Shown one piece after another: positions 3,098-59,600 of a stretch of 60,000 bases of DNA. The notes under the pieces were generated by a model. It did no database searches. It was given only the letters and a program-made list of their open reading frames with translations, and had not been told where the DNA came from. Both the position numbers and the translations under genes were made by a program. Positions within the stretch are counted from its first letter, which is position 1. The number at the start of each line of letters is the position of its first letter. The DNA is from Bolinopsis microptera (taxonomy: Eukaryota > Ctenophora > Tentaculata > Lobata > Bolinopsidae), in the NCBI RefSeq assembly GCF_026151205.1, contig NC_087073.1, positions 19,188,837-19,248,836 on the forward strand. Reading direction: 5' to 3'.

Positions 3098-4561
3098 CTA
3101 AAATTCTTCAGTACTAGCTATGATAAAACGTTTAATAGTATCCAGTTCTTCTCTCTTGTTAATTGTAGGGTTCAGATTAATAATAAACATCGCTTCAAAA
3201 ATCTTTCTTCTGACAGTATTGGGTTCAATTCTTAAAATATCTACTTCTAAACTGGGATTTAACCCCTCATGACAGCTCGAATAATGTATGGCAAAAGCTT
3301 GACTAACATTAGAAGGGGTAGCAGGGTAGGTAGCGTAACGTAAGTGTTCTCCTACACGAGCATGTACTTTCCTACTGGTTTCTCCAACGTACAGCTGGTC
3401 ACATAATTTACACTTAATCTTATATACAACATTCTTCACTTCACAATCTTTATTACAAACTATCAAAGGACAAATTTTACATGAATTAATACTGCACACA
3501 CGTTTATCATACGGTCTGTTACTACATAAAATATTTCTCAATTTCGAAGTAGGTTTAAAGTTTACTTTAATAGGTAAATTGTTCTGCTTTACATAATTTC
3601 TAATCTTATTGCTAGTACTGTCCGAAATAAAATCTAAATTAAGAACTGTCCTGGAATCATCCTCAACACTCTGACGCCTGTTAGAATTACTACTGTTACA
3701 ATAACGTCTTGGGTTCTGGTAACCGTTTTTCTGTAATAGATCATCAAGGAGTCTGAGAGAGTGCTCCTTTTCCGCTGGACCAGATGAGATACGGCAAGCC
3801 TCGCTATATAGGTTCTTCACTGTATTAATCTTAACAGACTCAGGATGGCAAGAGTTGTTGTGCAGGGTAATATCCTTTTGTTGCGGCTTGCGGTACAATC
3901 TGCTGGTTAATTTACCGTTTGGCTCGATCCGGACCTCAGTGTTCAGGAAGGGGATAAAATCGTCCTGTTGTTCTGGAAAGTCGACCTCCCACTTCAACTT
4001 TTTGTCCGGATCTTGGTCTGCAATCTGTTGAACCAGAGCAAGGGCTTCTTCTTTCGTCTCTGCAGTACTGGCAGCATCATCTATGTAGCGTTTGTAGAAG
4101 TTCGATAAGTATACCGATAGGTAGTGTCGATCGGTGTAGATAGAGTTCTTCTCGAACTTGTACACTCTAATGATGGCACAGAAGGGCCCTGGCCTCAAAC
4201 CCATGAACAGACCATCCTGCTGTAGCCAGAGAGTCCTGTTATACACAAAGAAAGAGTTGGTAAGGATGTGTAGTAGGATCTCATGAATGTCTGTCAGGCT
4301 GAGTCCCATCAGGTCCAAACTGTCTCGGTGCTCTGTAGCTAGCTCAATGACATCGTCTATACAGCCCTGTACGTTTATGTTAGTGTATGAAGCTGAAATA
4401 TCCGCGGCAAAGAACTTTCTCCTGGCAAGCTGTTCCTGAGAGATCTGGCGGAGCATCTCTATGTGCTGGATTAAATTACTCAGGTGACTAGGCACCTCAT
4501 TAAGGAGAGGTTTAAGAATGGTCGTCACTAGCCAACTGAGTCTCTCTGTAGGTGAGTCCAC
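3098..4561 (-). CDS. Penelope-like element RT + GIY-YIG polyprotein, 5' truncated
   Basis: An open frame of 487 codons. The N-terminal half is a Penelope-type reverse transcriptase: the first catalytic Asp is in AADISASYTNIN, the conserved loop reads GLFMGLRPGP, the active site is RYIDDA, and a FLNTEV motif follows. The C-terminal 100-110 residues are a GIY-YIG endonuclease with LYVGETSRKVHARVGEH and a late Glu in a KIFEAMFI helix, preceded by a Cys-rich stretch (CKIC, CNKDC) typical of the linker. The N-terminal region of a full element is missing: reading upstream, the frame continues only to a stop near 4600. The AT-rich stretch 2745-3097 is probably its 3' UTR. Not interrupted internally, so this is a fairly young 5'-truncated copy. 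Confidence 0.92.
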   Translation of the reverse strand: MDSPTERLSWLVTTILKPLLNEVPSHLSNLIQHIEMLRQISQEQLARRKFFAADISASYTNINVQGCIDDVIELATEHRDSLDLMGLSLTDIHEILLHILTNSFFVYNRTLWLQQDGLFMGLRPGPFCAIIRVYKFEKNSIYTDRHYLSVYLSNFYKRYIDDAASTAETKEEALALVQQIADQDPDKKLKWEVDFPEQQDDFIPFLNTEVRIEPNGKLTSRLYRKPQQKDITLHNNSCHPESVKINTVKNLYSEACRISSGPAEKEHSLRLLDDLLQKNGYQNPRRYCNSSNSNRRQSVEDDSRTVLNLDFISDSTSNKIRNYVKQNNLPIKVNFKPTSKLRNILCSNRPYDKRVCSINSCKICPLIVCNKDCEVKNVVYKIKCKLCDQLYVGETSRKVHARVGEHLRYATYPATPSNVSQAFAIHYSSCHEGLNPSLEVDILRIEPNTVRRKIFEAMFIINLNPTINKREELDTIKRFIIASTEEF

Positions 4562-27333: not shown

Positions 27334-30300
27334 TCAGAGTACGTCCATTTCAACGCTCAACAAATTGTTAGATTTCTGAACTTTTCCGAGAGTTAATATG
27401 ACATCCAAGAAATACTGATTGCTATCACACAGTGAACTCAAAGTTCTAGTTTGAGCAGTAAGAGCTGATATGATTCCGTTCAGAGTGGACATTATCTGAG
27501 ATGAACTTTTCTTTAGTGCCAGACCGTGGGTTGTTAAAATGCTGCTGATCCACAAGAGGTAAAAGTTGAGATGTCTAGACGTACTCAACTGAAATGGATG
27601 TCTTCAAGGTGGGGTATTATCATGCTTCACTTAACTTAAAAATGGATAACAGCCGCGAAAATTGTTATACATTTACATATATGAGATATATCCTACATTC
27701 AACTAACCTGATCAACAAGGAATTTGAGCAGTGAAGTGACGTGATGTAACGGCAATGCACCAACCACATAATGGATCTGATCTTGGGGAACTTGCTCCAG
27801 CACTTCTACTACCAGTTCAGCTGTATTAAGTCTCAAACTTATAACCAGCCCTCGCAGGTACGATTCTGAAGGAATTATCGTTTTAGATTGTTGAATTTTA
27901 CAGCTGAAATTAGATAATTTGATAAAATGGGGAATCTTGAGCTAAAACAGGAAGTGACAGGTATGTTTACAGATGTTAAGCAGAGCAAAGCAGACTGCTG
28001 CAGCCAGCACTACAATATCTTCTACCCCATATAAGGAATAATCGGATATAACAGCACAATATGATGCAAGTATTCTGTTGCATATTGCCGGGCTCAGTGG
28101 CGCGAGTCTATAATCCAGCTACTTGGAGGCGCTAAGGCTTGAATGTCTTGAGGTAGGGAGTTCTGGGCTGCGCTGTGCTATGTTGAACTGGTGTCCACAC
28201 TAAGATCGGTGCCAATATGGGCTCCTCTCGGTAACTTGAGGGGTCCAGGTTGATAATTAGAAGCGTACCGGCCCAGGGACGAAAGTCAGCAGGCAAAAGC
28301 TTCAGTACTGATCAGTAGTGGGATAGCATCGGTGAATAGGCACGTAGTTCAGCTCTACCAAAACAGGCAAACTTGTCCTTTTGTACGTACACCACATAAA
28401 TGTTTTTGTGATAAATTAACAATTTAATAATACCTGAGACGAGTGCAGCTCTCATTGTTTGAGGTGTGATGTCCGTGTCCAGATCAACAGGATCAAATGT
28501 CAGGGTATTGTCCAGGGAGTATATCAACAGCCCCTCTGTCGTGGCAGCACACCAGCTTTGACCTGTAAGATTGCGACACTGTACACACACGGCTGGTAAT
28601 TACTTAAACTCGTAATCACGAAATCGGCAAATTTACCGCAGTGATTTCCAGTAAATTGACGAAAATGTGTACGAAATTATCTGCCGTCTTTTGTTTAAGG
28701 AGGATTATTGGACACATTTACAGCGAAATGGTACAAATTCACAATCATTAGGTACAATTTTGTAATATCAATCTTCGGAGTCTTATCTCTAATTTTACGC
28801 ACTATTTGATAGCATAGCTGTGAGCTCTAGTTTGGAAATTGAATATGTTTGAATCAAGTACAGCTATTAAAAAACATAGAAAATATTTTGGTTACGAAGC
28901 CACACTATTATCGTGATTATAAAGTTTGTTATACGTGTAGCGAATAGTGACAAAGTGAGACAACGATCCTAGCATACTATAAGTTTAATGGCAGATAACA
29001 ATCGTACTATAGTGTTCCATGTTTAAAACTTATGCATCATATTCCGTAGCAGATAATATTATCCTTTAACAGCACACCCAAAAACCATAGAAATAAGTTG
29101 TGAGTCTGTAAAGGATTGCCACAGCAACGCCCCACGCCAGTATTGAGCTTACCATATTTCTGTCGATTACTAATCCTCATTAATTTCCGTACAGCAATAA
29201 TGATCACCTTCATTGTGACACTTTCCCTGGTTTGTGTTTCAGCCTCTAGTAATGACAGACTGAAGGTCCGAGCTCTGTCATTTGGTCGAACAAATGCAGA
29301 TTATGTAGAATTCCAACCTAGTGATATGTCTCCGTTCTCTACTTCCTTTACCATATGCTCATGGATGAAGAGACTTCATGATGCGAGTTCACCGATAGTG
29401 TTGCGCTACTATCCAGGACATGTCATCGTCGGAGACGAAGGAAATTGGAATTACGTCAATGGCTTGAACCTAGGTCTAAAAGGAAGGTTCCCAGAAGCTA
29501 AACTGTGGTTCCATCACTGTTTATCGTGGGTGACTGGAGGTACACAGAGAGTGTACGTGAACGGTGTACAATTAGGCAGCACATCCGCTTCAGCTGACAA
29601 CCTTCAAATGGGAGGGACCATCGCTTTAGGGAACTCTAATTCTAAAACTACGAATTACGTATTCGGTGGACAGTTACTCAAGCTGAACTGGTATTCTGAA
29701 GAACTTACCTCATCCCAGATAAGAAAGATGTTTGAAGCTGGTATGTGTTCTACTGTTATAGAGGAGGAGTATAGCAGCAGGGAGATAAAGTGGGAGCTGA
29801 TTCTGACGAAACAGAGAAACGGCAATGTTACAGAGTTTCTCCCAACAGAATGTGCCACGTATGAGGTAGAGACCAAGCTGGAGGAAACTGAGGTTAAACT
29901 TGCCACCATTGAGCAGAAACTACAGGAAGTGACTGCAACTCTAAACGACACTCTATCCGAACTACAGGAAAGGACTACAACTCTAAACGACACTGTATCC
30001 GAACTAACAGAAACTAAAACAGAACTGATTGAGACCAAGGCAGAGTGTAGGGAATCAAAGATTGTGCTCCAGGAAAAAGAAACCAAGCTTAACAGAACCG
30101 AACAGAAACTACAGAAGGTGACTGAAACTCTTAACGAAACTTTAACAGAACTGAATGGGACCAAAGCAGAGTGTAGGGAATCAAAGATTGTGCTCCAGGA
30201 AAAAGAAACCAAGCTTAATAGAACCGAACAGAAACTACAGGAAGTGACTGAAACTCTTAACGACACTTTAACAGAACTGAATGGGACAAAAGCAGAGTGT

Positions 30301-33300
30301 AGGGAATCAAAGATTGTGCTCCAGGAAAAAGAAACCAAGCTTAACAGAACCGAACAGAAACTACAGGAAGTGACTGAAACTCTTAACGACACTCTCTTGG
30401 AGGAGGCTAGAAGTCTTGAAACTGTTAGTAGATGGGACGTTCTGTTCACTCCCCCTTACCTGAATAAGCTCTTTACACGGCAGCTCTACAATCAACTGAC
30501 CAACTGGGTTATGATGGGTAAATCTTTCTTACTTTTTTAAATTTCCCAGGAAATGTATAATTGTTTGTATAATTGTATAATTGTTTCATATTATCATTAT
30601 TTAACAACGTGACCAGATAAAGCTCATACCACTGTTGACCTGACAAACTTATAACATTTCAGAGGATTTCATTGGGGTGAACGTTACAGTGGGACTGGTG
30701 AAGCATTTCAAACAACACCACGAGGAACAAGAGGACCACGAAACTTGCGAGGAGGACTGAACAACAACTACTGTTATCTACTATTGAAGTTTTAATTAAG
30801 TGCATGGTACACTGTAACCTTTGTCATTTGGCCCTGTAATCGTCTGTAATCATCTGTAATTGTCTGTAATCGTCTGTAATCAACATTTTAGCTGTAATAT
30901 TAACATTACTAATATACTGTTATCAGCTATTAACTATTAACTATCAACTAATATTATTCTATGTGACTGTATTAAACTGTACTGACTTAATATGACGTAA
31001 ACATTTATTATGATAATAACGATTTACATATGACTAAAATCTTTGATTTTAAGCTGTGTTCAACTGTTAACACTAACATTTGACGAAATCAACACTTATT
31101 ATAAAAACTCCAACTAATCATCTGGCAGCTGTTCTTATGAGGTCTTTAAACCTACCAACATTAGGCGTGCCCATCCAGAAAGGGTCCTAAATTAACAGAT
31201 TGGTCAACAAACACGTTTTGAGTCTTTAGTTTGGTGAAATACAAAAACATTGCACATGAAATTATGAAACGACTTGAAAGTTGGCGAATTTTACATAATA
31301 TTCTAGATGGTTCAGCAAATTAGTATTTTTGATTTCTGGAACCATTCGTCGAATGGCTCATTTTAAGGTTATCCATGCTCTTACCTGATCACGTGATTAC
31401 TATTAGATGACCCGTTAAATTGTGAAGGCAGCCCAGTTATAAATTTTGTTAACGAGATACACAAAATGCTTTATAACTTCGTCATTTCATATCCTTTTTG
31501 CCTCAAACTTGCTGAATCTCAGATCAGACTCAGCAATTAATTATCTACAGTAATCTGGGAAAATTAGGCGTCTAGAATTTTCGGGAAGAACAATATAGGT
31601 GATTTAATATTATATGGGTGTGGTCTGAAAAAAATTTTCGAATTTTGGCGATGGGATCCTCGGAGTAGTTACAACATGCCATCTGCAAAATTACATGTCC
31701 CAAACATGAAATACGGCGGCCGCCGCGGTACTATAAGACCCAGCGTATGTAACGTTGCTTTTAGCCCCCCTGTATGTTTAAAATTTGATTTTTTTAATAT
31801 CAAATGACTAATTTTTGACACACGCTTTTGCGTCCCATTTTTATTGATATTTCGACAGATTTGTGCAAAAATAATCATCGGTTCAAAAATAATTGGTTCA
31901 CTCCGGTAGGTATGTCTGGCTAGCTTTATTCTGAAGTTAAACCATTTTGAGCAGAAGTTTTTATGGCCTCTTAATTAACTACTTCTTTTTGTTTTTAATG
32001 TAAAGATTTCATGAAGAGCTTTTATTTGATGCCCCTATATTTTCATCAAAAATTAGAACTTTCCAGAACAAAACCAATGTTATTTCTGCAAAATTTAGGT
32101 GCGCAATAACGAAATAAGGTAATTTAGCCAAAAGATATCGGTAACTGGTAGTTTATTGAAACTGGTGTTTCATGAGAAATAGCCTTGTTAGCACTTGTTA
32201 TCAGCCAAAGAACATAAATCTAAATTTCTTCAAACAGTTGAAAACCATTATTTACTCGATTTCAAGTTTAAAAGTGACAGATTGTGGATGCGCGAAATCT
32301 TAGCTAATAGCTTACCTAATACCTATCTTATAACCTTGTGAGTATCAAGATACTGTCTACATGGTAGGTTAGGAGGTGTAAAGATGGTACGTATAGAAAA
32401 TGTCTTCCTTCTAAAATATCACCAATCGCTACACCTACGCTATGCATTTTTCTAGGCAAGGGTCGACCGAGGGCAGGATTTGCGACCGAGGCCGAGGAAA
32501 TTTTGCTTTGATAAAACCGAGACCGAGGCAAACCGAGGAATTGTCCTCCTGACCGAGGCCGAGGAAAAATCGCTATTTCTCGGTAAAACCTTCAAAATTT
32601 CGCCGAGGCCGAGGAATAGCATCTTAATTTTTAACCGAGGCCGAGGCGAACCGGTCGACCCTTGTTATCGTGAAGCTCAGCACGTCAGCAAGCCAGTTGG
32701 TTGATCTATTTTGAAAAATAGTTTAGTAATATACAGCTCTATGTTTAGTATATACAGCTCTATGCAGATGATTCTCAACTGTACATCTCATTTAAACCAA
32801 ACCGTGTGGTACAGTTCATTGATGTCCAAGACAGAACAAACAAATGTCTTGCAGAGATAAAAGCATGGATGGTGAACAACTACATGAAACTGAACGAAAC
32901 AAAGACAGAACTACTGGTGTTAGGAAAGAGCCATGTTCTAAAAAAGTGTGAACTCAGTGTCAGACTGCAATTTGGAAGCACTGAAATTCTGCCTACGGAG
33001 TGTAAAGGAGACAGCTGGAAGAGTCTGGGTGTCAAATTTGATGAAACTCTAAATATGGAAAGACAGATCAATAATGTCAAAAGGAAATGAAGCTGGACAA
33101 TGATGAATCTAAGAACCATTGGTCGTTACCTTGATGAAGGCATTAAATTGATGCTGGTGAAACAACTGGTCATATCTAAATTAGACTACTGTAATTCTCT
33201 TTACATGAATCTACCCAAGACCAGATTGAACAAACTTAGATCAACCCTTAATGGGGCAGTTCGTTTCATCTATAACATAGAAGAGAGGACCACGGACTTG

Positions 33301-36300
33301 GTTCCCTTCTATAAGAAGGCCCACATACTCCCTATAGACCAACGAATCTTCTTTAAAGTTTGTCTTTTAACCCACAAATCAGTTCACGGTACCGTACCTG
33401 ATTACCTCAAAGCACTGCTGGATGTGGATGTAGTGGATAAAGAACTCTCAAACACCATGACCATGACCAGGTCGAAGAGACCTGATGACCATCTCATGCT
33501 CAAGGTACCAAAGAATAAAAGATCCAAAGTTGATGACAGACGTTTCTCAAGCCATGCACCGATTGCATGGAACTCTCTTCCCCTGATGTTGAGATGTATC
33601 ACTGATAAATAAATAAATAAAATAAATAAATAAAGTCAATTTTTACAGCACAGCAATATATATCTAAATATCAGATCCTCTGTAATCATAATGTATAAAA
33701 AAAGGAGCTTTTCTCTGTGCTGAAGGATGAATCAAGGCAGATCATGGTTCTGTTAGCAGGCCACCCTAGTTATGGACAATACATATATATAAAATAATTA
33801 AATTATAATTTTAAAATTGTGTCAAGATTGAACTAAAACATAACTCAGGGTAAAATAGACGTATTCCCTTCGTCAAATTAACTATTTACAATACTAAACT
33901 TAAACGAACTCCGGGTAAAATAAACGTAATCCCTTTGTCAAACTTGCTATTTACAATAAGTTAATAAATTAATACGGTTGAAAATTATTTCATATTCAAT
34001 AACAATGTAGCATCAATATAATTGATACAAATGAGGAGCATACAGTGAGAATTGCACATAACAGGAGGACTGTAGGTATGGAGCAATAATGATTGACAGT
34101 GCACCTTTCCACTGATGTTCCTAATTTCCTGTAATAGCTTAATAGGCATGGAAATACTTTGATTGCAGGGGATAGATTGGATTCACTTATGTACTGAGAT
34201 AACTTAACCGAAATAACATAACTGCCTAGATACATTGGCTAGTGTTGGGTGGGATCATGAATTTATCGTAAGAGTTATCCCCTTGGTAATTCTCATCAGT
34301 TAGCAACATATTCATAAGAGTTTCTTTGTATAACTTAGAAAATTTCTTAACGTCGTCACACTCTCTAAGGGACTTTGGTAATATGTTCCAGGCCTTAGTT
34401 CCTAGATAGTTAAACTCCTTGTGAGATCTTGATTTAGGAGTATAAAGATTGCAGTTTTCTGCCTCACGTGATCCACCAGAAATATACGAGAATTTCCCGA
34501 TAAAATGCTTTGGACATGTTTCATTGATTATACGGTACATATATGAGCTAAGATGAACCTGTCGTCTCAAATGGAGAGGAAGCCATCCCATATTTTTGTA
34601 TACATTAACCGACCTCTCTCTGATGTTTACATCTAGGGCTATTTTAGCAACCTTTTTGTACATGATATCTAACTCTCCTAGTCGTTTTTTATATGTTCTT
34701 GACCAGATGGTGTCTAAGTAGTCAAAATGTGGCAACATAAGTGCATTAGCAAACATCTTCCTGAACTTAAGAGGGAGAAGTTTTTTTGATCTATACATAG
34801 CACCAATTCTTTTGGATATCTTTTTCTTAATGTTATCAATATGTTCATTAAATGTCAATCTGCTGTCAACTATAAGTCCAAGGTACTTATGGGATTTAGT
34901 TTCACAGATTACCAAAGTAAGGTCATCACAAATTTCAACAAGGATGGCATCAAGGTTAGGCTTAGAGTCAAGGATCATTAGTTTTGTTTTTTCATTATTC
35001 AGGGATAGTTTATTAGCCTGAAGCCATCTGATAACTAATTTCAACTCTTGTTTGATGTTACCATAGTTTCCTCTAGATATATTGTCAAAATATAATGCAC
35101 CGTCATCAGCAAATAGATAAGGTTTAGAAAATAGGCATGCATTAGGCAGGTCATTGATAAAAATGCTGAATAGAATTGGTCCTAATATACTTCCTTGAGG
35201 CACTCCAGAGTTCAATGAATGTAAACTGCTTATCCTACTCCCAACTCTAGTTTGCTGTAATCTATCTGTGAGGAAGCTCCTAAACCAGCTCAATGCAGTA
35301 TCTTTTATTCCATAATGCTTCAGCTTTTGAATGAGAATATCATGGTTAACAGTATCAAATGCCTTTCTGATGTCCAGGAAGATAATTGCAGGATGCTTGG
35401 CACTGTTCTTAGCAGTAAATATACGATCAAACAGATCTAACATGAGATAAGTTGTAGAGTGATCTTTACGGAAACCATATTGATGCTCTGAAAGTATTCC
35501 CTTTTCATCAAGATATTGAGTCAGTTGGGAGTTCACACAAAATTCGATGCACTTTCCAAGAATCGGTAAAATTGAGATTGGTCGATAATTACTAGGATTC
35601 TCAGTATCACCATCCTTATGGATTGGGGTGACTTTTGCAACCTTGCAGCTGTTTGGCATGATGCCACTGGATAAACTCAAATTTACAAGATGTGTTAATG
35701 GAGCAATAAATGCAGGTAAAATTTGTCTAAACACTCTCAATGGTATATGATCATTAGTGGATTTGCTACAAGGGATACTTGCCACATAGTCTAAGATATT
35801 GGACTCAGTTATTTCAGTAAAGCTATTCAAGCTGGTCTCGTTGTCAATCTGCTCATTTTGTAGATAAGATAGAAATTCATTTTCATTTTCCAGCTGCACT
35901 TCTGCTTGGATCTTTGGACCTATTTCAGCAAAATATTTATTGGTGGTTTCAGCATCAAGATTGTTATTGATATTGTTAGCTTTAACAGGCAGATTTGATG
36001 CTGTCTTTATCGTTTTCCATACACCCTTTAGATCATTCATGGCACACTTGGCTTTCAGTTCTGTTGCTAAGTTAGTCTTCCTATTAATTCTAGACAAATA
36101 GGTTGAATAGTTTCTCTGCCGTTTATATGCCATCCATAATGAGTCACATTTATTACAGTGTATAAGACCATTTGGATGTATACGTCTGTTCTTGTTGTGT
36201 GTTAAAAATTTACGGTAAAGTTTCCCTTTCAATTTCTTACTTTCTAAAAATTCTGGAGATGGCTTATGGATGTAATCACTATGGCACTTAATTTGTTTAA

Positions 36301-39300
36301 TTGGACAGAAGTGATCATAGTAGTGATCAATATGTTCGTTTAAACCATCAACTGCATCATTCAGACTAGTTGAATCTATTATTGGTCTATAATCACAGGT
36401 TTCCAAAAATTCTTTAAGAGCAGTAACATTCATTTTGCTGTGATCTCTTATTAGTAACTTCTTGAATTTTGAGGCCTTATGCACATTGAAATCGACAATG
36501 AACTTTACGACCTGATGATCTCCTATACAATCATCAAGGACTTTGCAGTCAAGAAACTTGGAGTAAGTGTTTGTTATGACAACATCGATTGTGGTCTTTG
36601 TGATTCTGTTTCCTAGTTTAGCAATGCGGGTAATATCCTGAACTACCTGTACCATTCCAAACATTTTCATTGTAATGTCTAATTTCTTATAGTTCATACT
36701 GCTGATGTTGTTTTGGTCTACATTTACATCACCCAGCCAAATAACATTCTTACTTCCTATACTCATCATGCAGTCTGTCATATAATCTAAAAATTTGTCA
36801 AGAGGACTAAACAACTCAGATCTGTAGAAACAGCAGATGAAAATATTGCAATCTGTAAGATGGATCCAAATAGCCTCGATTTGGTCATATTGCAAAACTA
36901 AGTTTAGTTGAATCATTTTAAACTTTATGTGCTCACTGATGAGAATGCCACATCCCCCATGACCATTGTCGTTAGGACGGTCTTTGCGGATAAAAGTAAA
37001 ATTCTTGGGTAGGTTTAGACTGGCTGAGTCAATATCCGACTTAAGATTTGTTTCATTCAGGCATAAAACATCTAATTTCTCTTTCCAGATTAGATCTTGG
37101 ATTTCAAGACATTTTGGCATACCTGTTAGTCCTCCCTGCATGTTGCAATGTCCCACTGCAAGCTTTTTGGCATGGTATGAAACTGTGATTTTACTAATGC
37201 ACGGGTTAATGCAAGAACTGCTGTGAGAGCATGAAAATTTTTCCAATTTATGCTGCTATAAACTTGTCAGAATAAGATAAATTGCAGAACTGGCAAATTT
37301 GTATGAGATAATAACAAAGCTTTCTAAAACTTCAATAAACATGAGGAACAATGTGTAATTATCCCTTATCTAGAATCTAGATGAAATAAATGTTAACAAT
37401 CTTTCTGAAAATTCAAACTTGCTTATGGGCCCAATACTTCAGAAATTTAGCAAGTCGAATAACACCGCTTGTATTGAGGTGACAGTTATCAGATATTTTT
37501 GCAGATGGTCTGGCAAAATAAAATTCTTTCCTGAATCCACTTCTATTATAGTTAAATAAATTATGGGTGCTAATGTAATTAAAACAAGAATCTTTGCTAC
37601 ACATATCCTTAATAACCTTATTCAGCTCTGCCACAACATCATTGCGGCCTTTTGTACTCCTGGGAAGAATATTGAGAACATTAATTGTTGCATTCGGATA
37701 CACTGACTTGAGATAATTTAAGAGATTACTAATGTCACCCGCTGCATCCTTCAGTGACTTTGAGCCAAAATAGACTGTGTTCACATTATTAGTTCCTGTC
37801 ATAATATAAATAATAGATGGGGATGGAACGGAGTGTAGGTCAGTTTTTAGTTTATTTAACATTACTTTGGCATCAGCCCCAGGATAAAACAGTTTACTAG
37901 CACTAACAGTGGACGATGATAACTTGTCCGCATCAAGAAACCTGAACATAGAGCTGCTTATGAATAGGACAGACTTTTGTGAAGCTTTGGCTGGCTGTTT
38001 GCAAACTGAGAGTGCAGGTGAAGAAGAGTCTGTCAGTTTGTGTCCTGAATGAGGGATGGGTGGGGGCGGTGAACGCAGACCAAACTCAGTTGACTGAGTG
38101 ATCCTAGGGGGCTTCATCAGTCTTAGGGTGATGCTGATCCGGGGTTCATCACACATTTCGTCTGGCAGTATCTCATGTTGAAAGTCAGCCTGAGACAATT
38201 TGGACATAATGAAGACATCTCCATGCTGAAGCTGCACAGAGCCCACAACTTCATTGCTGCCGTTTGATCTAATTTGCAGTGTTCTCGTCGCACCAAGTGA
38301 AATGGTTACAATATCAGAGTGTTCTACAATACATGATTCAGAATCGCTATGAGCTGGCATGAACTCTGCTCCAGTTTCATATAGATTGACGAGAATACTA
38401 TTGTGTCTGAAATTGGGTAATATCACATTAATGTAGGAGCTGAGTTTAGCAAGGTAGGAATCATTGTGTACACTTTTTGGGTCATGTGTTGCACCTGAAT
38501 ACTCATAGGGAAAGTCACCAAAATAAACCGATTTCCTGTTTTTAAAACCGTGACTGAACTCAAGTTCTTCCATTAATAGATCAAGTGAAAATTTAGAGAA
38601 TGGACCATCATCTAGTAGGGTAACTGGTTTCACTGGTGATGGGGAACAAGTTACAGATATATTCATTGGCCCCGGTGTTATAGGATCGTAGACAGGGGCA
38701 GGGACCAAGTTTGGATATTTGTCTCTGGGCTTAGGGGTGTTGATCCGTGATTCACCAGTAGCAGTAGATACAGGGAGATCAGACACATCATCCTCGTCTG
38801 CCATAACCTCGTTAACAACAATCTCACTGATAACAATCTCGTTTCCAACAACCTCCTGTGGAACAACCTTGTCCACGACATCGTTGTCAACAAACAAACT
38901 GTCCGATACAACATCTTCCACAACAATGTCATCTACATCAAACGCTTCTACTTGATTGATAACAACGTGTGACTGAGGGGTAATGGTTATGATCTCACAT
39001 TCAATCTCCTCTGATAAGTTCGGCAGCAAATTTTCACACTTAAAACTCTGTTCTTGTATTTGAGTTTGATCTGATATGAGACTATCATTGTACTGAGCAA
39101 TGAGATCACTAGTTCTGATAATTTCATTCAATAAAGACAACTTTTTTTCTAAAAAGTCAATCTTGATGTCTTTTGACAGACAATTGTTACAGTTCTCTGA
39201 TTTTTCAGACTGGAATGAAAAGTTCAAATGTTCTAAAGGGCGCTCACAAAAGTGGAGACTAATGTCTGAGCTCTGATTATTTGACATAGTTATATTATCA

Positions 39301-42300
39301 AGAGTTCAATGTTCAGAAGCACAATAAACACTGTAAACGCAATACCTTCAGTCCAGATAGTAGTTTTGATGAGAATAGTTTTGATGAGAAGGAGGAGGAT
39401 GAGTAATCTTCAAGTACACTCACAGCAGTCCTTTGCACGTCAACACTTACGCTCGTCTATCATATCTCATACCTCAATAAATGTAATAGATTTGTAGTGT
39501 TGTAATTAGTTTAAAACCAACTGTTTCAAGCGAATGTTAAAGAATCATTTATATAATCAGTTCTGATGTTTTTCTTTCCATTGTCTTCACTTTTCAAGAC
39601 ACATTGGCTTTTTTTTTAATTTTTTTAACCGCACTCCATTTTATGCCTTGATCTCTTACTTACTTGGATCTGATTCTTTCTTGATTGATTATGTCACTGT
39701 ACTAACCTTTATTATACCTACATGTACTGTATGGTTTCTGCTTCTATTTAGTTTAGTGTGGTTTACAATAAAAGATGTTTTAATTTTGTCTTTGCCTTAT
39801 GTAGAGTTATACTTTAGTTCACTTTTTACACTTTTGCTCACATCACTCACAGTCAGCCGCTCTGACATGGTTAACCACCTTCCTTGTGTTGTTGGTTAAT
39901 CATATGAGCGGGATATAAATACCTCATTTCATTTCATTTCAATATTGACATGTGTATGACGTAATTGTGTGATAGTAGTGATAGTAACAAACGTTTAAAC
40001 AATTCTCTCAATTATTGCAACATATCCTTGTTAGTATTCTCACTGAGCTGCGAGGGCCACATCGCTGCAGTGTTTCTATTTCTATTATGGATTGTATTTG
40101 TATTTATATTCATTTATTTATTTATTAAGATGACTAACCATCTATCTCCATAGGAGTGGTGGGGCTGTTTTTACACTACAATTACTGCCTATCATTGCAC
40201 CGTCTAACCAATAAAACATGGTAAACAGTGAAGATGAAAAAGAAAGTAATCCACCACCTGATACAGCAACATCATCAAATGTTCAAGGAGCAGTACTGCA
40301 ACCAGAGCCAATACAAGTGCAGTACCAACAGCCAGCAGCCCGCCTTACAGCCCCACCGCAATGGAAAGCATCTATGAGTTATGAGGAATGGAGACTACAA
40401 GTTGAGATGTGGGACAAATTATGTGCAGTCAGAAAAGTAGACCCCGCAGAGCAAGGGTATGCCTTGTTCAACCTAGTATCTCAACACACTGATCATAATA
40501 TCGTATCAAAGCTCAACTCAGCAGTAAAAAACAAAGACATCGATGTTCTTGACGGGGAAGGAGTACAAAACATCATGAAGCTATTAGATAGAACATACAG
40601 GAAAGATGATACCAGTAAGATGATGAAATCCTGGTCGGATTTTATCAATCTTAGGAGAAAGGACAGTCAAGATATGTCAAGCTTTCTCAATAACTTTGAT
40701 CAAGCCAACACCAACTTGAAAATTAGCAAGATATCTCTTCCTGGAACTGTGTTAGCATTACACATGCTAGAAAGATCCGGTTTATCAGCAAATGACAAAA
40801 AGCTGGTAATGACTGGAGTTGAGTTAGTTAAAACAGAGTCTGTTGTTGAAGATATGATGAATTCAATCAAGAAATACTTTGGTGAAGGAATCCGTGAGGT
40901 TGAAAAGAGACCACAATGTGATACGCCCATCAAAGAAGAGCCAGTATTCAATGGTGAGAGACTTTTTTCTGAATCGTCAGAATCTACACGTTCATCATCA
41001 GATCCTGATAACATGTCTGAAGAAGAGGAAGCCTACTACACCAATTGGAGAAATAGAGGAAAGGCTTGGAGAAGAACAGATAATAACAGATCATACAACA
41101 ATCACATCTCAAGATTTAATCGTGACAAAAGGGATAATGACAAAGGAGAATACAAGCCAAAGAGATATTCAGATAATGATCGAAGAAGAGATAACTCTAG
41201 AAGTTTCAAAAAAGAGTACTCTAAGACATATAAGACAGCTGATGACTCTAGGGCAACTCAGAAGTTTAACCCCCGGTTGAGATGTAATAGATGTGAATCA
41301 GTAATGCATTTGATTAAAGATTGTCCTCATTCAGATAGATCAGAAAATGTTAATGAATGTAGAGAGATTTCAGAGATGGAGACAGCAGAATGCCATCAGG
41401 TAGCACTTTTAGACTCTGCTTGCTCGAAGAATGTAGTTGGCGAAGAATGGATTCGTGAGTACATAGATAACCTGACAGAAGAGGACAAAGCACTCCTGAA
41501 AGTGTCAGACGCCCGTTCAAAATACAGTTTTGGAGGTAGTGACCCTATTGCTGCCGCAGATGCGGTGAGAGTACCTTGTATAATTGCCGGAAAGAAGACA
41601 TTCCTTTGGGCTGATATAGTGCAAAGGAATATTCCATTTCTGATCTCCAAAGAAGAGATGGCAAAGCGAGGGTTTAAATTAGACCTTGGTACAAGTACGA
41701 TTGAAGTAGATGGAGAGATGATCCCTGTTATAACAACCGAGTCAGGTCTGATTGGCATATCTCTATGGGATTATAATGAAGTTGCTATAGAAGAGCAATG
41801 TAATCTAGTCAATCTAGATGACACAGTCAGCAGTATTACCAAACTTCATAAGCAGCTGGGTCATTGTTCAGCAGAGAATCTGAAAAAGATTACCAAAAAT
41901 GCAAACGTACAAGGTGAAAATGTGAACAAGGTGATTGATCAAGTGCTAAAAGAATGTGATGCCTGTGCGAGATATAAAAGAACACCCTCCACACCAGTCG
42001 TTGGATTACCTATGGCAACGAAGTTCAATGAGGTAGTAGCTCTTGATTTGAAACAATTTACTGGAATCAATGGTTATGTGATTTACATTGTTGATATGTT
42101 CTCAAGATTCTGCAAAGCTAGGGTGATTTCCAACAAAAAGCCAGAGACAGTAATAAAAGCCTTTACTATGGAATGGATTGCAGCAGGTATGGGACCTCCA
42201 GGAAAAATATTAGTGGACAATGGAGGAGAATTCGCAAACAATGAACTTAATGATCTCAGTGAACAACTCAACTTTGAAATTTGTGTTACCAGTGCCTACT

Positions 42301-44968
42301 CACCTTGGTCAAATGGCTTATGTGAAAGAAACCATGCTGTGGTTGACAAATCAGTGCTTAAAATGATGTATGACGGGTTTCCATTGAAGATAGCACTTGC
42401 ATGGTCAATCAATGCCAAGAACACACTGTACAATGTCAGTGGATTTTCTCCAGTGCAGATAGTGACAGGTCAGAATCCAAACTTTCCTGGGGTATCTTAC
42501 AACTTGCTACCTGCTAATGAAGGAGCAGATGAATCATTATCAAGCGACATTCAAAGGAATCTTAATGCAATGTATCTAAGCAGAAAAGCATATCTAGAGG
42601 CAGAGAATTCAGAAAGAGTTAAAAGAGCTTTGAAAAGACCCTTACGAGATATCAACCAAGACTTTATGATTGGTGATGTTGTATTCTACAAAAGACCTAA
42701 TATTGAACGCTGGAAAGGACCTGCCAAGATAGTCGGCAAGGAAGGAAAGACTCTTATACTGAGGCATGGAGGACTGCTTATCAAAGCAGCAAGCTGTAGA
42801 ATTGTGAAACGAGAATATATAGTGAGTGACGAGCACAACCAAAACAATGATGATATCTTGGAAACAGAGAATAGCATACATGATGAAGCAGTCAATCTTA
42901 ACGATGATCAGTTTGATGAAGCTGCTGAAAACATAGAAGAAATGCCTATTCAATTTCAAGTGCCAGTGGAAACAGAGGAAATACCAACAGGACAAGAAAT
43001 TATGAGCTCCTCTCCAATACTTGAAATAGACTCTAAGGTAATTTCCAATGAACAAAAACAACAACTCAAGATTAAGTATTTGGAAACTAGACTTCAGAAA
43101 AACGATGTTTCGGTCGGAGATACGGTGAAACTTGTTAAAGAAGGAAAAGAAAATGAATGGGAGACATGTACCGTGACTCAAAAAGGAAAACGGCTTGGCA
43201 GAAAAGATCACTGGGTGAAACTTATGACAACCCAAGGTGAAGAAAAGCTGATAGATTGTACAAAGACGGCTATGTACAAAGCTGATGCTGCTATTGATGC
43301 AGAACCTGGAGACGATCACGAAGAATGTAATGTTGTGACAATTCCCACTTCCAGACACAATGAAGATGTGGTTATTAAGGCTAAAGTTATTGAATTGACT
43401 AACTGGAAGCAGAGAGAAGTATATGATGAAGTCAAGGATTGTGATCAGAATGTCATTACAACAACTTGGGTAATAACAGAAAAACCCAGCACTGAACTTG
43501 GAGTTAAAGCCCGGTTAGTAGTCCGTGGATTTCAAGAGCAAAATCAGTCGATTGAAGTGGAGTCACCTACAGTATTCAAAAACACTCTCAAGGTTGTACT
43601 TGCTATAGCTGCAAACCAGCAGTGGCAACTAACAACGATTGATATCAAAGCTGCCTTTCTGCAAGGAAATAAAATTGAAAGAAATGTTTATGTCATACCA
43701 CCCAAGGAAGCTCATGTAGAAAAAGGTTATTTGTGGAGATTGAGAAAGACAGTGTATGGTTTAAATGATGCGGCAAGAGCTTGGTTTATCAGTGTGAAGG
43801 GACTTCTTATCAACCTTGGTTGTACTCAATCAGTGTTAGATCCTGCTTTGTTCATATGGAGAACTAGTACTGGATTCGAAGGAACACTTGTGCTTCACGT
43901 TGATGATTTCTTAGTAGCTGGTACAAAGTCATTCTTTGATAGAGTTGTAAAAGAACTGACATCAAACTTTGAAGCTGGTAAAATCTGCAAATCAAAGTTC
44001 AATTACATTGGTCTATCAGTTGAGCAGACAGAAGACGGTATCCTAGTGAACCAACATGAATATATCCGAGATCTAGCAGATGTCATCAATGATAAAGAAC
44101 ATGAGATATATCATCTGTCGACTGACAGGAAGCTTAGAACAATATGTGGTCAGTTGAACTGGGTAGCTGCTCAATCACGCCCAGATTTGTCATTCATGAC
44201 GTATGATTTAAATGTAACAAAGAGTGTAGATCCAGTAGAAGCTGTTAAGAAGGCCAATAAAGCATTCAGACGGATGAAAGAGCTCAACGGTTGTTACAAC
44301 ACAAAGTTCTCAAAGTTAGGAGACATTTCTACACTAAAGATTGTGATCTACTCTGATGCATCATCTATGAACCTCGGTGACAAGGTGTCCACAGGAAAAG
44401 GTCATCTAATAGTCCTAATGAATGAGGAAGGAAAGATATCACCGTTATCATGGGGAAGTCATAAATGTAAACGAGTTGTAAGCAGCACTTTGAGCGCAGA
44501 GACTTTGGCATTCAAAGATACATTAGATCATGGAGTGTATGTCTCTCATCTGATAAGTGAGATCTACTTCGATCAATTTGATAAGTCAATGGTTCCAGTA
44601 ATAGGCTTTACAGACAATCAATCATTAGATAAAGCTTTGCGATCAAGTAAACATGTTGAAGAAAAGAGGTTGAACGTTGATCTGGCTACCATTAGACAAA
44701 TGCAGCAGAAAGATGAGATTGAAGTAAAATGGGAAGAGGGAGCTAAACAGCTTGCGGATCCCTTTACTAAAATAACCAGTAACAGTGATAAACTTTTAGT
44801 GATGCTAAATAAAGGAGAAATTGTTTCAATTTAATTGGTATTTAATGGTTTTTTAATTAGTGGTAGGTTTTGACGCCAATGAAACAGTGTGCATTTGTTT
44901 TTTTTAATTGTTTATAATTTGTTTATAATTACGAGTGACGATGACTTTAATGTATAATTAACCTTTAA

Positions 44969-56628: not shown

Positions 56629-59600
56629 TACATCATCACAGTAGTACAGAACAGATCCCTGGAGGTGATACACAGTGCTCATTACACAGAACCATGTCAA
56701 TGTAATCTGGTAGCACTGCAACTAACAGCTGTATCATCCTACTCATTAGTTGATTGGGCAGCAGAGGAACGTGCTAACTGTAGCTGTCACGTGACTGACG
56801 TAACAACCATTATTACAGCGAGACTTAAGGACTGTGATATCTAGAGAGACTGACTGTAAAAGCGTAGTGTGATTAATTTTGCCCTGATTATATCGGAGGC
56901 GATCTGGGCACGATTTTCATACTACAAACTTGTCAAAGTCAATGAAACTGAAGCCACAGTGTGACAGAACATTTGGGTATTAATGTCTTTGTGTAAGGAC
57001 TGAGAATAACACATGTATCTATTAGCAATACTAGCAGGAACCCGTCTACCCTAAAGTGGTGTCAAGACTCGAGAGACTAAAATAATTATTACCTAATTAA
57101 TTCGCGTTTTTGACACCACTTGGGAGTCAAAATTTTGGGCACTAAAATTCTTATTCCTTGGCCAATTTTTAATTTTTTCATGCTTATTTGAAGGCCATTA
57201 AAGCATTTGACCCAGTCAAAAAAATTTCAGTTGTATATCTTTTACGGTTTTTGCGGAAAGTCGCGTTAAAGTTGATGCCGTGGTGTCAGTAAAATGGCAC
57301 GGATCCATATACATATTATATATATATTTCATGGCTGGACTTCTACACAATAAAAGAAAGCGGTTGTGATTAGATCTTCGAAAGTCTTTGCATCGTTTAT
57401 TTACATCAATTCTGAGAAATTATATCATTAAAGTAACTACAACAGATACGAATCATATACAATTGAGAATAAATACAAACTAAAAGCAGTGGGAAAATCT
57501 GATGAACTGAAATTTAAAAAAGAAACTGAAAGCCGTTAAAAATGTACTCTTATCTTATCTCTTATCTAAATACTGATAACTGATTCTCGGAAAATCACTT
57601 AAAATCACAACAAAAACCTGTAAAATTTATACTTAAGTAAAAAATGTAATATGCACGTCTCTGGAATAATGGTATAACTAAATAAAATCTACAAAATATA
57701 CTAAAACTAAAACTAAGCTCCGGCAGATTTAAAAAGTAGATGGTTACTATCAAGGGTGTTCATACCCCCAAACCGTTCAAGGGTTTTCAATTGGGTCTGG
57801 TAGAACCCCTCTCTAGCTTCCATAGCCTTTTCTTTGTCTGCTTTACTAATATTAGGCTCAAATACTAAAGCGTCTACTATAATGACAGAAAGGTGCTTAC
57901 TGAGTGAGGAATTATAGGAGGCTATGGTACTAAAATCTAAATCATGATCAATATCTAAAAAATGGTTAACTAATTTACAACTTCTTATACCTTTCTTTAT
58001 GTGACTCTTATGGTTAGAGAATCTCTTAGGGAGATTTGAGGTAGTATAACCGACATACGACTGTTTACAAGTCTTACACTCCATTAAATAAATGAGGTTA
58101 TAACTCTGACAAGATATATACTTAGTTATAGGGAAAACTTGTTTAGAATGGTGACTACTAAAATTGGAACAGGGGGACAGGAAATTTTGCTTACAAACAT
58201 AACATTTACCACAAGCATGGCACCCTGGGTCGACAGCCCCGGGAACCGCCCTTAGACTTTCGGAGTCCGGTTCCTGGATCTGGCTTGCAGTTGTTTCTCT
58301 CTCATTATCACAGTTTAAAGTTCCACTGGCACGGTACTTATTGTGTACAAGCATGCCACCGATAGTTTGATTCTTTCGATGACTCACGAATACACTGTCC
58401 ACACGTACCAGCTTCTTCAGGGCCGGTTCAAGGTTGAGAAGGTGCTTATACTTATGGATAATGCCCCCCATGTTGGGAAGTGCTGGATTTTGATCCATCA
58501 CCATGGGTATTAAACAGGCAGTCGACTCATCCTTGTCTTTAAGGGTATACAAGTTTTTCCTATTAGCTATATCACTAAATTTGTTAAAGGCATCTTCTAT
58601 AATACTGGAATGATAACCTCGGGCTATATATATTATATATTTTATTACTAAATATATAACTTGTCAGAGTAATAACCTTATTTATTTAATGGAGTGTAGA
58701 ACTTGTAAACAGTCGTATGTAGGATATACTACTTCTAATCTCCCTAAGAGATTTTCTAATCATAAGAGCCACATTAAGAAAGGTATCAGAAGTTGTAAGT
58801 TAGTAAATCACTTTTTAGATATTGATCATGATTTAGATTTTAGTTCAATAGCCTTATATAACTCTTCACTTAGTACGCACCTTTCTGTTATTATAGTGGA
58901 CGCTCTTGAATTTAAACCTGAAATAAGTCAAGCAGATAGGGAAAAGGCCATGGAAGCTAGAGAGGGGTTCTACCAGACCCAATTGAAAACCCTTGAGCGT
59001 TATGGGGGTATGAACACCCTCGATAGTAACCACATCCTTTTTAAATCCGCTGGAGCTTAATGTTTAGTTTATTTATTTTATTTGACATGATCTCAGCCTA
59101 TTAACCAGTGTTTAGTTTACAATATTGCTATCAGAGACGTGTTATATTCATTACTATTTATATATTTTTACTGCTTGATTCAGAGAAATCTAGCTTTTTC
59201 CGAGAAACTAATCTTTAATAGATTAGATAAAATGTACGCAGCCATTCTTTTCGTTTGATTATTACTCAGTATATTTTAGTTTTGTACCGTTTTAAGTCAC
59301 ATAGTTTTGTACGTCTTCCTAAGACTTGTTTTCCTTTCCTAGTTTGTAAGTTATTTTAAAGATTTGTGAATATTCCAGTTGCTTTTAGAACAATTTTATC
59401 TCAGATAACGATGTTTAATAAAATGATGCAAAGACTTATTTCGAAGATCTAATCAACACCGACTTTTAATGTGTAGGAGTACAGCTACAAAATATATATA
59501 TATATATCGTCTCGCTATATTATATAGTAAGATAAAAGGAATATAGGCTGTAGTGTATGTACAATGAAAACCTACACTAAAATTACTAACCCGAAGGACT

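Follow-up and report, generated by a model that had tools for sequence, protein, structure and literature searches.

A LINE of the ctenophore Bolinopsis microptera whose ORF1 appears to combine AlkB dioxygenase and SGNH hydrolase domains

What might a retrotransposon do with an enzyme of a kind known to demethylate nucleic acids? The question is raised by a 60,000-nt stretch of Bolinopsis microptera NC_087073.1 (the window, to whose positions the element coordinates below refer), in which the first open reading frame (ORF1) of a long interspersed nuclear element (LINE) encodes a 624-amino acid protein with the order coiled coil, acidic linker, AlkB, linker, SGNH (37413..39287, on the minus strand like all other parts of the element). 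In an initial annotation, this ORF1 had been described as an intact 624-codon frame lying 166 nt upstream of an intact LINE ORF2 on the same strand. The coordinates bear this out, since ORF1 runs from ATG to stop and ORF2 occupies 34226..37246, which leaves a gap of 166 nt. The annotated motifs also stood at the residues given for them, namely NLY at 301, HSD at 313, H371 and RxSxTxR at 383–389 for AlkB, and GTNNV at 498 and D600/H603 for SGNH. We regard it as nearly certain that predicted AlkB and SGNH domains are here combined in the ORF1 of a LINE.

Assignment of residues 217–393 (38109..38639) to the AlkB 2-oxoglutarate (2OG)-Fe(II) dioxygenases was indicated by a match to the Pfam profile PF13532 (2OG-FeII_Oxy_2; E 3.6e-18, above the gathering score) and by a phmmer match between ORF1 and ALKBH3 (8.8e-15). 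Together with the folds described next, these matches exclude a chance resemblance, and the lack of a significant AlkB profile match, which the initial annotation had named as a refutation, did not occur. Both the AlkB and the SGNH folds were confidently predicted by structure prediction, and the predicted structure together with the alignment indicated a double-stranded beta-helix with the HxD...H and R...R residues present (H313, D315, H371, R383 and R389, with E317). In a profile search against solved structures, the best AlkB matches were ALKBH3 (E 1.3e-28) and ALKBH2 (8.4e-25) as opposed to ALKBH5 (2e-3), and identity over the aligned fold to ALKBH3 and ALKBH2 structures was 23–30%. The ALKBH2/3 subgroup call derives only from these scores against solved structures, the AlkB tree having held one human sequence, on a long branch. 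An ALKBH3/ALKBH2 type rather than an ALKBH5 type favours 1-methyladenosine (m1A) and 3-methylcytidine (m3C) over N6-methyladenosine (m6A) as substrates. The AlkB domain is very likely an active dioxygenase, as judged from its sequence.

The SGNH hydrolase domain (residues 435–624; 37416..37985) was weak in Pfam when a single sequence was used (PF13472, E 8.5e-5, and PF00657, 4.3e-4, both below gathering) and clear by profile and predicted fold, with homology to the esterase of zebrafish ZfL2-1 at a profile E value of 4.5e-12. As in type IV esterase ORF1 proteins, the fold was accompanied by the catalytic residues (S446, G470, N500, D600 and H603), and a single helix was predicted upstream of the esterase at residues 34–80 (39048..39188; block means of the predicted local distance difference test score, pLDDT, 70, 87, 88, 85 and 66), a putative coiled coil. 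Again in keeping with type IV, neither an RRM nor a CCHC was detected in ORF1 by Pfam up to E 1, and no PHD was found by Pfam. The C-terminal domain of the protein was basic (25 K/R versus 12 D/E).

Relatives of ORF1 in protein databases numbered 66 in a first search and 53 in a second, begun from four distant ones; two were common to both, giving 117, some of them without both domains. An organism name was attached to seven, and all seven were from another ctenophore, Mnemiopsis leidyi. The second search disclosed a sister clade, represented by protein sequences alone, in which a PHD-like finger is followed by AlkB and then SGNH. A PHD was scored by Pfam in 4 of 6 sister-group proteins scanned (E 1.4e-4 to 7.4e-3, below gathering), and the finger matched the BPTF PHD by profile (3.5e-4). 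In the AlkB tree and in the SGNH tree, one branch parted 57 coil-type from 38 PHD-type rows (Shimodaira-Hasegawa-like approximate likelihood ratio support 98 and 100, respectively), P0063, P0065 and P0066, which occur in both alignments, having been omitted from this test. The same split in both trees fits one fusion before the split, the trees being products of a quick search and unrooted, and that of AlkB placing P0064 together with human ALKBH3 by way of long branches.

Catalytic residues were retained with few exceptions. In an alignment of 66 rows (the window copy, one copy from each of three further families described below, and 62 of the 66 first-search proteins), H313 and D315, as well as E317, were invariant in all 65 rows with a letter, while H371, R383, R389, S446, G470, N500, D600 and H603 were invariant in 66 of 66. 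The gaps at H313 and D315 belonged to P0041, which was also gapped at N296 and Y303. Four proteins had been left out: P0027, without part of AlkB including the distal histidine; P0010 and P0037, which look like chimeric gene models; and P0064, of another architecture. A sister-clade alignment of 53 rows, in which fragments were retained, was made without the second-search proteins P0115, P0116 and P0117. In a wider alignment of 101 rows, made up of 98 fusion rows of at least 480 amino acids plus human ALKBH3, P0064 and P0118, none of the 101 departed from the six AlkB sites, the three AlkB-only additions included, and the SGNH serine, glycine and asparagine were invariant wherever a letter stood (99 rows). 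At position 600, D was present in 96 rows and E in a single one (P0068); at position 603, 97 rows had H, and the remaining four were gapped. Loss of the iron ligands in all other copies, a case that the initial annotation had raised against itself, is contradicted by the ligands kept across these alignments. The AlkB–SGNH architecture, which recurs in further families and in database relatives, is old and kept. When residues 215–395 served alone as query (24 candidates scored), one protein was obtained, P0118 (200 amino acids, E 1.6e-7). It was set aside as a free-standing AlkB and is probably a fragment of an AlkB–SGNH fusion, because it also aligns at S446, G470 and N500.

A genome search for further copies yielded at least 81 ORF1 matches in the 264.65-Mb genome, a lower bound obtained with 71 of 991 candidates scored. 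At 20 places, the window included, ORF1 residues 1–622 or 1–624 were covered without stops at 99–100% identity. Twenty other loci (L009–L028) were taken with their flanks, comprising 18 of the 19 other complete copies (a copy on contig C231 was left out) and two incomplete ones. Seventeen loci spanned the element from the 5' leader (partial in two) to the (TTTA)n tail, flanks differed among copies, and the longest aligned pieces were 98.9–99.9% identical to the window copy by blastn. Irregularities were an insertion near the 3' end of L023, an early stop in L014, the broken-up state of L011 near a contig end and the 5' truncation of L027 inside ORF1, at window position 38788. Target-site duplications, assessed only by eye, were 0 to about 5 bp, and no long terminal repeats (LTRs) were found at the element ends in the 20 loci, those ends being the leader and (TTTA)n. 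As is usual for LINEs, near-identical copies were dispersed and 5' truncation occurred among them; by these sequences, the LINE is multicopy and recently active.

At least three further families with AlkB and SGNH matches were found in the same genome, at identities of 41–44%, of 50–53% (AlkB) with 38–40% (SGNH), and of 36–37%. In one copy of each (L029, L030 and L031), ORF1 was followed by ORF2 sequence with 54–57%, 54% and 47% identity, respectively; in L031, of the 36–37% family, only the first part of ORF2 was detected downstream (about 203 aligned residues). Another candidate family member, L032, was a truncated copy with AlkB and without SGNH. Comparison of L029 with L030 revealed DNA that was about 97–98% identical from just past ORF1 onward, whereas within ORF1 the match was only about 69.5% over the first 1.2 kb, with none beyond. 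This break in similarity at the end of ORF1 points to a recent swap of whole ORF1 modules between LINE families.

Selection was examined among 18 of 21 copies, window included, after omission of L024 (626 amino acids) and of the incomplete L027 and L028. In AlkB, 2 of 10 variable codons were amino acid-changing, with a ratio of nonsynonymous to synonymous polymorphism (pN/pS) of 0.069; corresponding values were 7 of 15 and 0.19 for SGNH, 13 of 22 and 0.42 for the N-terminal part, and 4 of 6 and 0.51 for the linker. Against a neutral share of amino acid-changing codons of 0.78, the AlkB count gave p 1.4e-4, while SGNH and the N-terminal part, each compared with its own neutral share, gave p 0.007 and p 0.03. 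In another family, L029 versus L032, omega was 0.21 in AlkB and 0.34 in the N-terminal part. From these figures, which involve few sites, both enzymatic domains appear to have been under purifying selection during recent amplification.

The element probably moves by way of a trans-spliced mRNA, the leader of which is swapped over successive rounds. The window copy begins with a 45-nt exon of spliced-leader type SL1 (39473..39517), identical to a 45-nt stretch of an approximately 434-bp tandem repeat unit on contig C1, and a 5' untranslated region (39288..39472) lies between this exon and the ORF1 ATG. Near-identical element bodies carried different leaders of 42–45 nt, which over 20 copies (L027, without a 5' end, was not counted) were SL1 in 10, SL2 in 9 and a third variant in 1. 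Leader type was scattered on the body tree, with 6 changes as opposed to 6.6 for shuffled labels (242 of 500 shuffles were as low); this tree was poorly resolved (of its 17 inner branches, 15 were open), and at least two leader changes are required by the two starred ones. Different leaders on near-identical bodies, scattered in this way, indicate that the leader was apparently replaced by trans-splicing between rounds of retrotransposition, for which the AG ending the resident leader may have been reused as acceptor. By eye, SL1 and SL2 resemble the trans-spliced leader given for Hormiphora mRNAs in the available text of PMC8527503; like the Mnemiopsis relatives, the leader sequence points to a ctenophore host.

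Exact genomic occurrences numbered 486 for the last 30 bases of SL1 (reversed control, 0) and 1150 for the last 29 bases of SL2 (control, 0). For SL1, 73 of 100 listed places fell on C1 between 14.49 and 14.55 Mb, mostly about 434 bp apart. The tandem array there (C1:14490815-14549182, mostly of units of about 434 bp) presents candidate spliced-leader RNA genes: in the unit examined, the 45-nt SL1 exon was directly followed by the donor-like GTAAGA, and Rfam returned only a sub-threshold SmY (17.6 bits versus a gathering score of 39). We consider the array a probable set of spliced-leader RNA genes. Among 12 SL2 loci (L033–L044, two of which overlap), no RNA gene for SL2 was identified; several kinds of sequence lay downstream, some common to more than one locus, as if leader-tagged retrocopies were common in the genome. 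At one such locus (L036/L037), the downstream reading frame resembled a secreted protein.

The whole element, of about 5.9 kb, extends from the spliced-leader exon to a (TTTA)n short tandem repeat tail (33606..39517, with the tail at 33606..33634), bounds that were set by blastn against the 20 other copies at different sites. As expected of a LINE, ORF2 (1006 amino acids) lies downstream of ORF1 on the same strand and encodes an endonuclease and a reverse transcriptase. The reverse transcriptase (residues 542–792; 34871..35623) was recognised from RVT_1 (PF00078, 6e-37), from matches to L1 and R2 reverse transcriptase structures (1.9e-13 for ORF2 against L1 ORF2 structures) and from FADD at residue 712. 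The endonuclease, of exonuclease-endonuclease-phosphatase type (residues 49–247; 36506..37102), was indicated by PF03372 and PF14529, both below gathering (1.9e-4 and 4.7e-4 for the two families), and by candidate motifs. By its motifs, the LINE may belong to CR1/L2 (Jockey superfamily). No ATG was found ahead of the endonuclease, the frame starting in the ORF list from a TTG at window position 37246 with only three more open codons (nine bases) upstream before a stop, so ORF2 is probably translated from a non-AUG codon or by reinitiation. A single-sequence structure prediction of ORF2 was set aside (mean pLDDT 32).

What, then, is the AlkB domain for? Overall, the explanation that we incline towards, by a little, is an ORF1 ribonucleoprotein (RNP) in which AlkB clears m1A and m3C from the element's template RNA and/or cDNA. 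ALKBH2/3 and AlkB classically act on both modifications, each of which prevents Watson-Crick pairing. ORF1 protein multimers would coat the element RNA as an RNP, which the SGNH half may carry to membranes, by analogy with what has been proposed for the zebrafish L2 ORF1; while the LINE reverse transcriptase copies the RNA at the target site, the AlkB half, using Fe(II), 2OG and oxygen, would strip m1A and m3C from single-stranded cDNA and/or the template RNA and thereby keep reverse transcription from being stopped or made mutagenic. This reading is suggested by the AlkB subtype, the ligands and selection, and to the narrower proposition that repair of the element's own RNA or cDNA is the main use of AlkB we give an even chance. 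Several points weigh against repair. AlkB folds accept DNA, RNA or protein substrates, and the LINE reverse transcriptase could tolerate m1A, in which case repair would not be needed. Residue 316, beside E317, was variable (N in 23, S in 18 and D in 18 of 66 rows) where ALKBH3 has D, so that substrate choice may have drifted, and in the sister clade P0110 (350 amino acids) had Q for the distal histidine and P0111 (477 amino acids) had K for the glutamate. Stronger constraint on AlkB than on the rest of ORF1 is suggestive, with only p 0.06 by Fisher test against the N-terminal part plus linker; constraint on AlkB at all is firmer, although the copies are related by descent and few sites were counted. 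Activity, substrate and RNA binding are putative. Of the initial proposal that the LINE brings its own demethylase, what stands is a multicopy, recently active LINE with an AlkB–SGNH ORF1 whose catalytic residues were kept under purifying selection, to which demethylation and its substrate add a presumed function.

The principal rival, which we think possible and less probable than repair, is that AlkB erases host-written m6A, m6Am or m1A from element RNA so that readers neither decay nor silence it. An ALKBH5-like protein of an orchid Ty3/Gypsy element, described as an m6A demethylase in vitro in the available text of PMC9289625, provides a functional precedent, a message that appears to be trans-spliced should meet the host enzymes that modify mRNA, and the sister clade adds a PHD-like finger. 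However, the domain is of ALKBH3/2 type and far from ALKBH5 (1.3e-28 versus 2e-3), and in human cells m6A aids L1 while ALKBH5 suppresses it, according to the available text of PMC7873242, so erasure of m6A need not favour the element. Were AlkB instead only a single-strand nucleic acid-binding module in place of an RRM or zinc knuckle, catalysis would be unnecessary. Such a module would supply the RNA binding that another part must provide in a protein with no RRM or CCHC by Pfam; ALKBH3 binds single-stranded DNA, according to titles of crystal structures, and P0110 lacks the distal histidine. We nevertheless hold this unlikely, as a binding module would be expected to lose its ligands in more lineages whereas the iron and 2OG ligands were unchanged in the 98 fusion rows of at least 480 amino acids and in all but one of the 53 sister-clade rows.

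It seems very improbable that AlkB eases integration by acting at the target site on chromatin or host DNA, such as on N6-methyladenine (6mA) or damaged bases: ALKBH2 and the nematode NMAD-1 (a 6mA DNA demethylase by title) were among the matches, and the sister clade has its PHD-like finger, but ORF1 itself has no PHD by Pfam, and ORF1 proteins are generally regarded as RNP proteins in the available texts of PMC3905857 and PMC4120745. There is next to no likelihood that a host ALKBH gene was captured once beside a LINE, as the initial annotation had allowed, or that an assembly artefact is responsible, given 20 stop-free places that are complete or nearly so, three or more additional families, and relatives with the same two domains in Mnemiopsis and many other database entries; the multiple stop-free copies rule out the single capture itself. 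A viral origin was also considered, and no relative was detected when viral contigs were scanned once with six peptide patterns. More speculatively, repair and evasion may be joined. The ctenophore LINE ORF1 would then be an ancient epitranscriptomic editor of the retrotransposon RNP, in which an ALKBH3-like eraser, with a PHD-like reader in the sister clade, strips methyl marks from a trans-spliced, capped RNA and so allows both escape from host control and a readable template; in each round the element would receive a fresh host leader and cap and clean the rest of its message itself.

Of all LINE components, the ORF1 protein is understood least, and it rarely includes an enzyme. The presence there of a demethylase-like domain that is conserved and under selection implies a cost to the retrotransposon, high enough to merit an enzyme, when its RNA or cDNA is methylated. 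It thereby becomes a directly testable question whether methylation of LINE templates occurs in the germ line and whether it stops reverse transcription. The ORF1 and ORF2 of such elements are also natural pairs of a putative nucleic acid demethylase with a reverse transcriptase, which may help in the reading of methylated RNA.

Elsewhere in the window, an intact Ty1/copia-like polyprotein of 1538 amino acids adjoined the LINE (40218-44834, plus strand; RVT_2 and rve above cut-off, gag_pre-integrs and a zinc knuckle below), and a fragment of another LINE ORF2 on the opposite strand (32758-33612, plus; 23% identity to the ORF2 described here) ended at about the 3' end of the element. A frame with weak reverse transcriptase and GIY-YIG matches, both below cut-off (3098-4561, minus), and a second with GIY-YIG above cut-off (57713-58552, minus) were noted, suggesting Penelope-like elements. 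A Metazoan signal recognition particle RNA gene lay at 28087-28382 (plus; 217.8 bits).

Among known systems, zebrafish ZfL2-1, a type IV ORF1 of CR1/L2 (PDB 4c1a/4c1b; available text of PMC3905857), resembles the present protein in the order coiled coil, then SGNH esterase, and in preceding an ORF2 with endonuclease and reverse transcriptase; it differs in lacking what here separates coil from esterase, namely a long acidic linker and an AlkB dioxygenase domain (about 177 residues). Known ORF1 types I–V combine RRM, CCHC, coiled coil, PHD and esterase, and esterase ORF1s were confined to two vertebrate groups among 448 elements, according to the available text of PMC4120745, as opposed to the ctenophore host here; the terms AlkB, dioxygenase, oxygenase, ctenophor and Mnemiopsis had 0 occurrences in the text of that survey. 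Among the papers listed from the open-licence literature (for one query, 20 of 405), no LINE with an AlkB domain was found, judged by titles and abstract openings, and an earlier description elsewhere is possible. Type III ORF1s of CR1/L2 bear a PHD, and proteins of the sister clade likewise begin with a PHD-like finger; that clade, known from proteins alone, joins PHD, AlkB and SGNH in one protein. With ALKBH3 and ALKBH2 the AlkB domain has in common its fold, the HxDxE...H ligands, RxSxTxR and its best sequence and profile matches, the difference being that here a retrotransposon encodes the domain, within one protein that also includes a coiled coil and an esterase. Plant RNA viruses of the Alphaflexiviridae, Betaflexiviridae and Closteroviridae also carry AlkB domains (available text of PMC9289625) and are likewise mobile RNA-based elements, their replicases being among the top viral matches in a structure library; they are, however, positive-strand viruses with AlkB inside the replicase rather than inside a LINE ORF1. 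The orchid Phalaenopsis Ty3/Gypsy element resembles the LINE as a retrotransposon that encodes an AlkB-family enzyme; it is an LTR element in which an enzyme of ALKBH5 type occupies a separate ORF (same source), as opposed to a non-LTR element with a LINE ORF2, no LTRs and a domain of ALKBH3/2 type inside ORF1 (ALKBH3 1.3e-28, ALKBH5 2e-3). Set beside these systems, the protein is best described as a type IV ORF1 to which a further enzyme, AlkB, is joined.
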